Below, piece after piece: positions 4,825 through 56,552 of a stretch of DNA of 64,000 bases. The position numbers and the translations under genes were made by a program. The notes below the pieces were generated by a model, which was given only the letters and a program-made list of their open reading frames with translations, ran no database searches and was not told the origin of the DNA. Origin of the DNA: Parvicella tangerina (GTDB lineage: Bacteria > Bacteroidota > Bacteroidia > Flavobacteriales_D > Parvicellaceae); contig NZ_OU015584.1 of the NCBI RefSeq assembly GCF_907165195.1, positions 3,234,978 to 3,298,977 of the forward strand, given 5' to 3'. Position 1 is the first letter of the stretch, and every line of letters begins with the position of its first letter.

Positions 4825-4835
4825 AAAGAAAAAAA

Positions 4836-5137
4836 ACGCCAAACCTATAAGCCGGATTCTGTCGAGTCCTATCATTTATCTGGGTGCATTGTTACCAATA
4901 CACTCAAGCTGCTTACCCCTCGGCAACGGACGGACAATCCTTAAAGCCGATATACATAGCATTTCACCGTATAGAGTTTACCTGATTTCACTACAGCATT
5001 ACCTGTACATTCTTTCTGCTGCACTTGTCCTATAATGACGCGAGGGTCATTATGACGGGCGTTACCCGCTATACTGTCCTATGGTGTCCGGACTTTCCTT
5101 ACAGACAAATGCCTGTACGATAGAACGGTTTGGCACT
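4836..5137 (-). ncRNA. rnpB: RNase P RNA, bacterial class A
   Basis: Read on the minus strand, this region has the signatures of the catalytic RNA of RNase P, which matures tRNA 5' ends. The 5' part carries GGAAAGTCCGGAC (complement of 5088-5100), the universally conserved P4-region strand, followed by CATAGGACAG and GGGTAACGCCCG. The 3' part carries ACAGAATCCGGCTTATAG (complement of 4846-4863), the partner strand. The two ends form helix P1: GCCAAACC at the RNA 5' end (5134-5127) pairs with GGTTTGGC near the 3' end (4845-4838), which sets the limits at about 300 nt. A run of T on the minus strand follows P1 and can end transcription. The protein subunit gene rnpA is also in the window at 12795. 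Confidence 0.96.
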
Positions 5138-53315: not shown

Positions 53316-55331
53316 ATGGCTACATTAGATTCTAAAATACCAGAAGGACCATTAAAAGATAAATGGACTAAACATAAGGATACGATTAACCTTGTAAATC
53401 CCGCTAACAAACGATTAATTGATGTTATCGTAGTTGGTACTGGACTTGCAGGAGGGTCTGCAGCTGCTTCACTTGCCGAAATGGGCTACAATGTGAAAGC
53501 ATTTTGCTATCAGGATTCTCCAAGAAGAGCGCACTCTATCGCGGCTCAAGGCGGTATTAACGCAGCTAAGAACTATCAAAACGATGGTGATAGTGTTTAT
53601 CGCTTATTCTATGATACGGTTAAAGGAGGGGATTACAGAGCAAGAGAAGCAAACGTTTATCGTTTAGCGGAAGTATCGGCCAACATCATTGATCAATGTG
53701 TGGCTCAAGGAGTTCCATTCGCAAGAGAATACGGAGGGCTATTAGACAACCGATCATTTGGAGGGGTGTTGGTATCTAGAACCTTCTACGCTAAAGGTCA
53801 AACAGGACAGCAATTATTGCTTGGGGCGTATTCAGCTTTGAGCAGACAAATTGGAAAGGGTAAAGTACAAATGTTCGGAAGACATGAAATGCTTGACCTG
53901 GTTGTTGTTGAAGGAAAAGCGAGAGGAATTATCGCTAGAGATATGATTACTGGTGAGATCACAAGACATTCAGCACATGCTGTAGTAATTGCGTCTGGTG
54001 GTTATGGTAACGTTTTCTTCTTGTCGACCAATGCAATGGGATCAAATGCCACTGCGGCATGGAAAATCCACAAGAAAGGGGCCTATTTTGCGAACCCATG
54101 TTATACGCAAATTCACCCGACTTGTATTCCAAGATCAGGAGATCATCAGTCTAAATTGACGTTGATGTCTGAGTCATTGAGAAATGATGGTAGAATCTGG
54201 GTTCCTAAGAAAATGGAAGATGTAATGGCGATCCGAGAAGGGAAAAAGAAGCCAACAGATCTTTCAGAAGACGAAAGAGATTATTACTTAGAGAGAAGAT
54301 ACCCAGCGTTTGGTAACTTAGTTCCTAGAGATGTTGCCTCGAGAGCAGCTAAAGAGAGATGTGATGCAGGGTTTGGCGTGAACCAAACTGGAGAAGCGGT
54401 TTATCTTGATTTCAAGAGTGCTATTCACAGATATGGAAAGGAAAAAGCGTTAGTTGAGGGTATTAGTAACCCATCTGAAGCGCAGATTATAAAATTAGGA
54501 GAAGAAGTAGTTGAAGCGAAGTACGGGAACTTATTCCAGATGTATTACAAAATTACAGATGAGAACCCATACAAAACACCCATGAAGATCTATCCTGCAG
54601 TTCACTACACGATGGGAGGAATCTGGGTTGATTATAACTTGATGACAACTGTTCCAGGTTGTTATGCTGCTGGAGAAGCCAACTTCTCGGATCATGGAGC
54701 TAACAGGTTAGGAGCCTCTGCGCTAATGCAAGGGTTGGCCGATGGTTACTTTGTACTACCATACACGATTGGCGACTACTTATCACACGAAATTAGAACT
54801 GGAAAAATTTCTACTGATCTTCCAGAATTCGTGGAAGCAGAAAAAGCAGTTCAAGATCAGATCGATCGTTTAATGAATATCAAAGGTTCTAAATCTGTTG
54901 ACCACTTCCACAAAAGACTTGGAAAAGTGATGTGGGACAAAGTTGGTATGGCAAGAAACGAGCAAGGCTTAAAAGAAGCCATGGAAGAAATTCGTCAAAT
55001 CAGAGAAGAGTTTTGGAGTGATGTTAGAATTCCTGGAGATGCCAATGGATTAAACCCCGAGCTTGAAAAAGCAGGAAGGGTTGCTGATTTCTTAGAATTA
55101 GGAGAGTTATTTGCAAAAGATGCATTACATAGAACTGAATCTTGTGGAGGTCACTTTAGAGAAGAATCCGTTGAGTTAGACGGCCCTCAAAAAGGAGAAG
55201 CAAAACGTGATGATGTGAATTTCGCATACGTTGCTGCGTGGGAATGGACAGGAGATCCAAAAGATGCAAAACTGCACAAAGAAGAGTTAGAATTTAAGGA
55301 CATTGAGTTGAAACAGAGGTCTTATAAGTAA
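53316..55331 (+). CDS. sdhA: Succinate dehydrogenase/fumarate reductase flavoprotein subunit
   Basis: The 671-residue subunit oxidises succinate to fumarate with covalently bound FAD. Visible parts are the dinucleotide loop [19 protein letters not shown] near residue 41, the flavinylation His in [17 protein letters not shown] near residue 72, [10 protein letters not shown] near 268, the active-site area [14 protein letters not shown] near 340 and [15 protein letters not shown] near 428, followed by [20 protein letters not shown] near 452. The capping and C-terminal helical domains are complete. Length is typical of Bacteroidota type B enzymes. The stop codon is directly followed by the inverted repeat of the element at 55332-55769. 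Confidence 0.97.
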
Positions 55332-55769
55332 TTAGCTCCTAGCAGGAAGCACTTAGCACTTAGTAATTGATAAATGAGTGAAGGAAAGTCATATCAGGAT
55401 TTATTAGTTTGGCAAAAAGCAGTCACACTTACTTCCGATGTGTATAAAACAACAGGCTTTTTCCTGGATGAAGAAAAATTTTCACTTACTCAACAAATTA
55501 AACGAAGTGCGGTTTCTGTACCTTCAAATATTGCAGAAGGCTGGGGCAGAAATACGGATAGAAGCTTTGGGCATTTCCTTTCAATAGCTAAAGGATCATT
55601 GTACGAGTTACAAACTCAACTGATCATTGCTAATCGATTGGATTATATTAATGAACAAACTTTAAATGAATTGGATTCCAAAATTGTTGAAATCAGCAAA
55701 ATGACGAGTTCACTTATGAAAAAATTAAATTAGAATTTGCTCTACTAAGCGCTATGGGCTAGGAGCTAA
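55332..55769. mobile_element. Inverted-repeat-bounded S23/IVS-like insertion between sdhA and sdhB
   Basis: A perfect 12-bp inverted repeat, TTAGCTCCTAGC (55332-55343) and GCTAGGAGCTAA (55758-55769), encloses the four-helix-bundle gene. After 4 unpaired bases, AGCACTTAG (55348-55356) and CTAAGCGCT (55745-55753) pair at 8 of 9 positions, so about 20 of 25 positions form one stem. The left repeat begins on the base after the sdhA stop codon; without the 438-bp unit, sdhA and sdhB would be 12 bases apart, like sdhC and sdhA (10 bases). The layout recalls intervening sequences in 23S rRNA genes, where an S23-type gene lies in the loop of a stem. Mobility is inferred from this layout, not shown. 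Confidence 0.6.
55374..55733 (+). CDS. Four-helix-bundle protein (S23/IVP family)
   Basis: The 119-residue protein has the family opening YQDLLVWQKAVTLTSDVY near residue 7, then SLTQQIKRSAVSVPSNIAEG at about 37-56 with the conserved SVPSNIAEGWGR, and SFGHFLSIAKGSLYELQTQL near 65-84. Members form pentameric four-helix bundles; some are encoded in 23S rRNA intervening sequences and a related protein (Avd) accompanies diversity-generating retroelements. No reverse transcriptase or variable repeat is present here. Function is unknown; nucleic-acid binding is inferred from relatives. It lies in the sdhA-sdhB gap, in the same direction as the operon, inside an inverted repeat. Confidence 0.93.
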   Translation: MSEGKSYQDLLVWQKAVTLTSDVYKTTGFFLDEEKFSLTQQIKRSAVSVPSNIAEGWGRNTDRSFGHFLSIAKGSLYELQTQLIIANRLDYINEQTLNELDSKIVEISKMTSSLMKKLN

Positions 55770-55781
55770 AAACTAAGTATT

Positions 55782-56552
55782 ATGGCTGAAAAGTTTATCA
55801 ATATTAAATTAAAAATCTGGCGTCAGAAGGATAGTAAGTCTGCTGGTAAGTTTGTAGAGTATCCACTGTCAAATGTATCCACAGATTCGTCTTTCTTGGA
55901 AATGCTAGACTTATTGAACGAATCACTTGTTGAAAAAGGAGAAGAACCCGTTGCGTTCGACCATGATTGTCGTGAAGGTATTTGTGGTATGTGTTCACTT
56001 TTCATCAATGGTGAAGCTCACGGTCCTGACAGAGGCGTAACAACGTGTCAGTTGCACATGAGAATGTTCAAGGATGGTGAAACAATTACTATAGAGCCAT
56101 TCAGAGCTAGTCCTTTCCCTGTAATAAAAGATTTGGTAGTTGACAGAACTCCATTTGATAGAATTATGCAGAAAGGTGGGTTTGTCTCTGTAAACACTTC
56201 AGGGAATACGCAAGATGCAAATGCACTACCCGTTCCTAAAGCTGATGCGGACAAAGCATTTGATGCTGCAACATGTATTGGATGTGGTGCTTGCGTAGCT
56301 ACATGTAAAAATGCAAGTGCTATGCTGTTTGTTTCTGCAAAAGTTTCTCAAATGGCGCTATTGCCTCAGGGAAGAGTGGAAGCGAAAGAGCGCGTATTAA
56401 ACATGGTTCACCAAATGGACATGGAAGGTTTTGGTAACTGTACGAATACTGGGGCATGTGAGGTTGAATGTCCTAAAGGAATTTCATTGGAGAATATTGC
56501 TAGAATGAATAGAGAGTATTTAAAGGCCGTTGCTACTTCAGAAGAACACTAA
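55782..56552 (+). CDS. sdhB: Succinate dehydrogenase/fumarate reductase iron-sulfur subunit
   Basis: The 256-residue subunit carries electrons from FAD to the quinone site. Cysteine motifs are visible for each cluster: [12 protein letters not shown] near residue 66 with a later Cys in GVTTCQLHM near 87 ([2Fe-2S]), [12 protein letters not shown] near 164 ([4Fe-4S]) and [14 protein letters not shown] near 222 ([3Fe-4S] plus the last ligand). Length is that of type B enzymes. It is the last gene of the operon and is followed by a strong terminator. Its 12-base leader after the right inverted repeat means its expression depends on readthrough of the inserted unit. Confidence 0.97.

Follow-up and report, generated by a model that had tools for sequence, protein, structure and literature searches.

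The intervening sequence (IVS) in the 23S rRNA of Coxiella is described as carrying tandem GACAGAT heptamers before the start of its S23p gene, with a copy number that varies by strain; its excision by RNase III has been shown, and the S23p reading frame is described as decaying and probably unexpressed (PMC4990558). In cas loci, 18 IVP genes have been reported, one of them between Cmr3 and Cmr2, and were read there as CRISPR-associated (PMC3936711). Heptamers of the GGGAATC and GGGGA(C/T)T types in Xanthomonas and Nostoc lie mostly between aligned genes and near stop codons; inverted pairs of them number 70 and 75 in two Xanthomonas genomes and are few in Nostoc, the preferred unit number of the Xanthomonas repeats is four, not five, and the text mentions neither S23 nor four helix (PMC4692102). 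The S23 family (PF05635) is named after rRNA and has matches in 235 of the 296 Bacteroidota genomes that we sampled (221 of them over the cut-off). Here we describe a 438-bp segment between sdhA and sdhB of Parvicella tangerina that is probably a copy of a widespread family of IVS-like mobile S23 elements in mRNA operons.

The segment lies in the 64,000-nt stretch of DNA that we analysed (the window), and sdhA, the S23 gene and sdhB are all on the plus strand (Table 1). An earlier note on this DNA had placed an S23-like gene enclosed by inverted repeats exactly at the sdhA-sdhB junction, and the coordinates, together with PF05635 and TIGR02436, confirm that placement. In particular, the stop codon of sdhA is the TAA at 55329-55331, the left repeat begins at the next base, 55332, and 12 bases separate the end of the right repeat at 55769 from the sdhB start at 55782. 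The left arm fills the space between the sdhA stop and the S23 start and consists of the units TTAGCTC, CTAGCAG, GAAGCAC, TTAGCAC, TTAGTAA and TTGATAA; the right arm, read on the opposite strand, consists of CTTAGTT, TTTAGCT, CCTAGCC, CATAGCG and CTTAGTA. As 7-nt arrays, the arms of this element count five to six units on the left and five on the right, and they are the top two 42-nt segments of the 64-kb window for 7- or 8-nt periodicity, both at lag 7. That the ends pair over about 20 of 25 positions, as had also been claimed, held up: counted by hand, complementarity of the cores is 20 of 25, and the extended inverted repeat spans 37 nt at 70%. None of 1000 single-base shuffles of both spacers matched the pairing seen at sdhA-sdhB, and the folded RNA of the element had a z of -3.8, with none of 100 shuffles as stable.

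Table 1. Features of the S23 element and its host genes at the sdhA-sdhB junction (window positions).
Feature	Position	Strand	Basis
sdhA, succinate dehydrogenase flavoprotein subunit, upstream host gene	53316..55331	+	NCBIfam NF005749, E 0
Left arm, six 7-nt units	55332..55373	+	Sequence; lag-7 match 23/35
Left inverted repeat core	55332..55356	+	20/25 complementary to 55745-55769
S23/IVP four-helix-bundle gene, 119 aa	55374..55733	+	PF05635, TIGR02436, PDB relatives
Right arm, five 7-nt units on opposite strand	55743..55777	+	Sequence; lag-7 match 22/35
Right inverted repeat core	55745..55769	+	20/25 complementary to 55332-55356
sdhB, iron-sulfur subunit, downstream host gene	55782..56552	+	NCBIfam NF005746, E 1.6e-128

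The S23 protein of the window matches PF05635 with an E value of 2.8e-40 (137.2 bits against a curated cut-off of 33.8) and TIGR02436 with 130.9 bits against a cut-off of 24; its solved relatives in the PDB, 2gsc and 2rld, have five chains each. Its gene is the sole reading frame of at least 60 aa within the element, in which we found no transposase or other DNA-moving enzyme. No group I or group II intron family was found in the window with Rfam at gathering scores, at which the matches were RNase P RNA and a tRNA and nothing else. (The former is a bacterial RNase P RNA of class A at window positions 4832-5136 on the minus strand.) A search for phage carriage gave no match to the window S23 among 50,697 phage records at an E value of 1e-5; plasmid records with an S23 match numbered 37, many from Nostocales.

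PF05635 genes number nine in this genome, each between two same-strand genes, at junctions that include sdhA-sdhB, cysD-cysN, scoA-scoB, hemB-hemL and fatty-acid oxidation genes. (Note that the junction genes were named from profile matches for some representatives, and scoA-scoB and others by eye from translations.) The repeat words differ among the nine copies, except for a GTAAAAC word common to two elements, L002 and L004, which have related S23 genes that each precede a thiolase. The arms pair beyond chance in seven of the nine (at most 4 of 1000 shuffles as good) and do not in L003 and L004 (118 and 140 of 1000 shuffles). The word TTAGCTCCTAGC occurs three times in the 3.98-Mb genome, twice in the sdhA-sdhB element and once within another reading frame; as a genome-wide marker of further copies it was rejected, and it marks only this element, because repeat words differ between lineages. 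The earlier note would have counted it against its reading if the repeat pair were found often without such a gene. For TTAGCTCCTAGC itself, with its one copy elsewhere, this is not the case, but hairpins built alike, from other words and without the gene, do exist in this genome. Heptad arrays scoring at least 14 numbered seven in 400 kb, two of them in coding frames, against none in one simulated sequence. Two gene-less heptad hairpins on the minus strand, L285 (G000:C1:119022-119129) and L286 (121056-121161), fill the paaA-paaB and kmo-tdo gaps (names assigned by eye), with 0 and 3 of 300 shuffles as good, and a third gap (G000:C1 123036-123111) has strong 7-nt periodicity too. Such gene-less hairpins may be remnants of S23 elements. 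A separate intergenic stretch, L289 (G000:C1:189600-190100), contains several heptad arrays and no S23 gene, and adjoins small nucleotidyltransferase-like and HEPN-like frames (names by eye).

The earlier note considered the setting in an operon gap unusual. It is not: the layout is general, and sdhA-sdhB is a recurrent address. PF05635 was found in 8 of 39 genomes of the family and in 163 of 245 genomes of the order, and of 241 sampled elements 207 lie between genes on their own strand: 116 of the 131 order-level rows, 26 of the 30 loci from the phylum, 52 of the 58 from named Bacteroidota and 13 of the 22 from other phyla. About 30% would be expected at random (from 101 codirectional gaps among 166 in 400 kb). 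For the order rows the excess has a nominal p of 1e-43, the rows being related to one another. Note that the 131 rows count the element L095 twice and that 10 non-central and 5 short frames had been dropped before them. Weak S23 genes are under-sampled because the loci were drawn from best matches: the order loci come from the upper part of the match list, the phylum loci are the best of 30 genomes, and for the named loci the best 80 out of 577 were taken. (Some species may be represented among both named and unnamed loci.) The most frequent junctions among the 131 order rows were fadB-thiolase (24), sdhA-sdhB (21) and sufB-sufC (14); the count for the 241 elements was 102 junction types, a figure that includes contig ends and misread neighbours, and 22 of these types were seen more than once.

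Loci from other phyla include Bacillota, Planctomycetota and two metagenome contigs named Methanophagales archaea. The arms of one archaeal locus are paired (L210, 0 of 100 shuffles) and those of the other are not (L213, 100 of 100); these two contigs could be misbinned. Antisense copies were seen in 2 of the 131 order rows, in 2 of the 30 phylum loci and on two cyanobacterial plasmids, of Nostoc (L318) and Calothrix (L320), in which S23 lies antisense between two same-strand genes (ribonucleotide reductase and secretion, respectively), an orientation that contrasts with the sense rule in Bacteroidota. A Nostoc plasmid S23 has arms of the AGGGAGT type. At L314 (genome G059) the left spacer holds an array, the first ten codons of S23 and a second array, followed by the S23 gene, and by eye this looks like a nested or partly duplicated element.

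The 7-nt periodicity of the arms is a property of the family. In the order set, the self-match of the arms was 0.43 at lag 7, 0.38 at lag 8, 0.37 at lag 14 and 0.32 at lag 15, with 0.27-0.30 at the remaining ten lags; in 47 control gaps it was 0.31 at lag 7, and the profiles of control gaps and S23 frames were nearly flat. The lag-7 peak appeared in every set (0.43, 0.40, 0.46 and 0.39). Moreover, 66 of 101 arm pairs in the order set beat all 100 shuffles and in 81 at most 5 of 100 shuffles were as good, leaving 20 that fail this level, L003 and L004 included. (The arm test left out 30 of the 131 rows on account of orientation or short spacers.) At the same level the arms pair in 48 of the 58 named Bacteroidota loci and in 14 of the 22 loci from other phyla. 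The pairing is between the two arms of the same element: across the 101 elements the median arm score was 28 for cognate and 14 for non-cognate arms. The same was found within single junctions, with 25.5 against 16.1 at sdhAB (19 non-redundant elements) and 25.3 against 13.9 at fadBA (n = 21), each excess reached in 0 of 10,000 permutations; it was weak or absent at dinB-dnaE, sufBC, cysDN, aT-ugd and ettA-pepD (386, 601, 1248, 1711 and 4964 of 10,000 permutations, respectively). That an ordinary small gene with terminator or repeat hairpins came to lie here by chance is an explanation to which we give hardly any credence. In its favour, intergenic hairpins are common: of 45 codirectional gaps measuring 60-160 nt within 400 kb, 3 have a hairpin that scores at least 21. 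These three, however, lack heptad periodicity, and the 7-nt periodicity, the cognate pairing and the recurrence in several phyla contradict it, as does the census.

Predicted RNA folds agree with the arm scores. The two spacers were joined by at least 10 pairs in 78 of 90 elements, which were drawn from the 111 that fit the size limits, and in 26 of the 90 when the right spacer was swapped in from another element; the suggestion in the earlier note of an IVS-like layout is supported by this difference. Among arrays scoring at least 12, taken from 207 elements, five was the commonest number of units, on the left in 22 of 102 arrays and on the right in 33 of 110; the distribution is long-tailed and leaves out weaker arrays. 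(Note that in 28 of the 207 left spacers a score of 12 was reached also by one of 20 shuffles.) Left arms abut the upstream stop codon: the start of the left array lay at a median of 0.5 nt from the stop, with quartiles of -2 and +4 (80 of the 102 arrays), in a search that began 3 nt before the end of the stop, so that lower values could not appear. The filled and empty sites that we compared are too distant for a target-site duplication to be judged.

A comparison with empty sites in related genomes, as the earlier note had proposed, bears on how such an element comes to be at sdhA-sdhB. Within the family, the gene is absent from 28 of the 30 sdhA-sdhB loci examined (from 36 matches in 35 of 39 genomes), at which the two genes are 7 to 105 nt apart; the two filled loci are those of this genome and of G026, which belongs to the same genus. 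The nearest sister, G027, with 89% SdhB identity, has no S23 gene there. The arms of the G026 element (L044) have other letters and still pair with one another (0 of 100 shuffles), and at L020, an sdhA-sdhB site that lacks the gene, a heptad hairpin stands alone (matched by 7 of 300 shuffles). A repeat word fixed by the site was rejected, because words change within sdhAB and fadBA and accompany S23 elsewhere in two groups of elements. S23 lineages cluster by junction: the S23 tree requires 10 changes for the ten larger junction types, where the minimum is 9 and the mean of shuffled assignments is 57, and the sdhAB group of S23 spans six families. This clustering also fits old residence with losses.

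The ratio dN/dS of S23 had a median of 0.11 in the 12 of 21 pairs that were in range and was 0.28 between this genome and G026. (Set aside among the 21 were three saturated pairs, five with dS above 1.5, whose ratios were 0.06-0.10, and L073-L106, with a ratio of 0.60 at a dS of 0.03.) By these ratios, purifying selection acts on S23 in the pairs tested, and the protein is kept for a function, either of the element or of the host. If the function were one of the host, the S23 gene and the stem could form an operon device that sets when, or in what ratio, sdhA and sdhB are expressed; besides the selection on S23, such a device would suit the recurrence of sites between subunits or pathway partners, and an arm pairing that is maintained despite changing words. 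We nonetheless think this improbable in view of the patchy occupation of the junction (2 of 30 loci in the family, and not in the nearest sister), the limited spread of PF05635 in the family (8 of 39 genomes), the many unlike junctions (102 types as counted) and, at sdhAB, a history of S23 that differs from that of the host genes.

This last point comes from tree tests. At sdhAB, S23 and its flanking genes each rejected the tree of the other, with a p-AU of 9e-12 for the flank tree on the S23 alignment. Simple vertical inheritance with the flanks was rejected at this junction by the AU test, a result to be taken with caution because the S23 alignment has only 155 columns and evolves fast. Identity along close pairs points to exchange as well. 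At fadB-fadA, the elements L139 and L167 are 97-100% identical where both flanks are 73-90% identical; the change occurs at the arms, the left arrays differ by one 7-nt unit, and donor flank extends no further than about 30 nt on either side. The same jump in identity separates L140 and L167, S23 is 98% identical between L073 and L106 at sdhAB (flanks 87 and 92%), and the value for G065 is 93% against flanks of 83 and 84%. Note that all cases of an identity jump, G065 included, belong to one genus, g16, that S23 DNA was at least five points above both flanks in only 3 of 40 close same-junction pairs, and that vertical descent remains compatible with most of these pairs (37 of 40).

Leftovers of earlier elements were also found. 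Genus g16 has two S23 lineages at fadB-fadA, and in G066 (right spacer L300) a right arm left over from the second lineage stands behind an element of the first. This leftover arm is 95% identical over 61 nt to the right arm in G067, the flanking genes being 83% identical. In the genome of the window, at the thiolase - acyl-CoA dehydrogenase junction, a C-terminal fragment of S23 lies behind an intact element; compared with the 130 other S23 rows, this fragment best matches the S23 that G027 has at the same junction.

Arms and gene have, in a few cases, stayed together at different junctions. The cross-junction arm score was 29.8 for 9 pairs with S23 at least 70% identical and 13.3 for 12,448 pairs with S23 below 50%. 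All nine come from two groups of related elements, and when every cross-junction pair is taken, arm and S23 similarity have a rank correlation of only 0.03. The first group unites the Flavobacterium element L206 with L204, L207, L208 and L201, and the second unites L217 (sdhAB) with L232 and L265 (fadBA) and L264. (The junction of L204 and its like was taken to be gmk-nadD by comparison with PMC5524665, where this gene set appears.) Among 19,997 cross-context pairs, 12 reached 70% S23 identity; one of the partners, L243, runs into a contig end.

We considered whether these observations could be accounted for by old resident elements that have been swapped by ordinary homologous recombination in short tracts and that have no transposition of their own. 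Arms and flanking genes would supply the homology by which the S23 segment of a junction is exchanged for incoming DNA from that junction, and the arrays at a site share words that could serve as crossover points; the ties of S23 lineages to junctions and the 37 of 40 close pairs without S23 DNA five points above both flanks speak for this explanation. We regard it as rather unlikely, however, because identity between L139 and L167 drops at both arms with no donor flank past about 30 nt, and because in both groups (L204/L207/L208, L206 and L201; L217 and L232/L264/L265) the arms are found with the gene at more than one junction. Each line of evidence for movement is arguable singly. Together they support a unit of arms and gene that has been exchanged and replaced, and the proposal in the earlier note of a mobile unit gains from elements that differ from their flanks in history and identity. 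(A reverse transcriptase acting in trans was rejected as a requirement: such genes were found in 3 of 8 S23-bearing and 4 of 31 other genomes of the family, p 0.14, one of the four matches in other genomes being under the cut-off. This genome has two reverse transcriptase genes, neither of them in the window.)

We therefore favour the reading in which the segment belongs to a family of very small mobile elements, each consisting of one S23/IVP gene between inverted arrays of diverged 7-8-nt repeats, that lie just past the stop codon of an operon gene and are usually read with the operon. To judge from the comparisons above, an element would be inherited at its junction over long times, would sometimes pass between species at the same junction and, more rarely, would reach a new one, and an incoming element could replace a resident one. 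In the mRNA, the arms are predicted to close a long stem around the S23 gene. By analogy with the 23S rRNA IVS, RNase III probably cuts this stem; sdhA and sdhB would then be translated from separate pieces, and the insertion would be nearly harmless. We infer that S23 probably binds the arms or the RNA of the element and serves its upkeep or movement, and the moving activity may be a host enzyme.

The element is real and general. If our reading of it is right, PF05635 genes are carried by a mobile element that ranks among the smallest known and resides in core-metabolism mRNA operons, and of its addresses the rRNA IVS is only the best known. S23 elements could then also be where inverted heptamer repeat pairs come from, and the presence of IVP genes in cas loci would be explained without a CRISPR role. 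Among the open-access papers listed, with few subscription papers covered, we recognised no description of S23 elements with heptad arms at operon junctions, which is a weak negative.

Several known systems resemble the element in part. MITEs and REP/RAYT are likewise short and intergenic and have inverted ends. The ends of a MITE are copies of transposon ends, whereas the words of S23 elements vary between lineages and the S23 element has a conserved gene of its own. Avd of diversity-generating retroelements belongs to a distantly homologous four-helix-bundle family (PMC10053308), and the window S23 does match Avd profiles (bAvd, E 1.8e-5 and 25.6 bits against 40; NF033474, DivGenRetAVD, 22.3 bits against 80); identity as Avd was rejected, as these scores are below the curated cut-offs, the neighbours are sdhA and sdhB, and no reverse transcriptase adjoins. 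The TAACTGA heptamers of Beggiatoaceae, cyanobacteria and Bacteroidetes form intergenic 7-nt arrays, some of which overlap the upstream stop codon; they are nearly all direct, whereas the arms of S23 elements are inverted, and that text mentions neither S23 nor a four helix bundle (PMC4679880). The heptamers of Xanthomonas and Nostoc, compared here by their published description, have 7-nt units as well, and gene-less heptad hairpins occur also in the genome of the window. As for the cas loci, S23 lies between cas6 and cas4 in a type I-D CRISPR operon on a plasmid of Anabaena sp. 90 (L317), behind a long left array of GGTGACA-type units, though the arms there show no pairing beyond chance (90 of 200 shuffles as good). 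The census suggests that IVP genes in cas loci are insertions at operon junctions, and these genes and the inverted heptamer pairs of Xanthomonas may belong with the S23 elements.

A more speculative reading, which we think unlikely, would make S23 at operon junctions, the IVS of rRNA, IVP in cas loci and many heptamer pairs one minimal class of mobile element in bacteria and perhaps archaea, in which a ring of five subunits reads about five units, one 7-nt unit per subunit. Such a ring might compete with the stem, much as TRAP acts on repeated RNA triplets, and its binding might both control the operon transcript and mark the ends for movement, perhaps via an RNA or single-strand intermediate.

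The element also resembles the IVS of 23S rRNA (Coxiella, Leptospira and others): both have one S23 gene, a length of about 430 nt (438 bp here), complementary ends and a patchy distribution. The GACAGAT heptamers, which are described for the Coxiella IVS only, tie the IVS of rRNA to the heptad design of the S23 elements. The ends of the sdhAB element are complementary and close a stem around its reading frame, and patchiness and horizontal transfer are seen in the 2 of 30 filled loci, in the tree conflict at sdhAB and, for other copies, in the jump in identity. The two differ in that the IVS lies inside an rRNA helix and the sdhAB element between two protein genes, and in that S23p is reported to decay in Coxiella whereas S23 is here under purifying selection in the pairs tested. 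Because it does not lie inside an rRNA gene, we do not call the sdhAB element an rRNA IVS, though it looks built like one.
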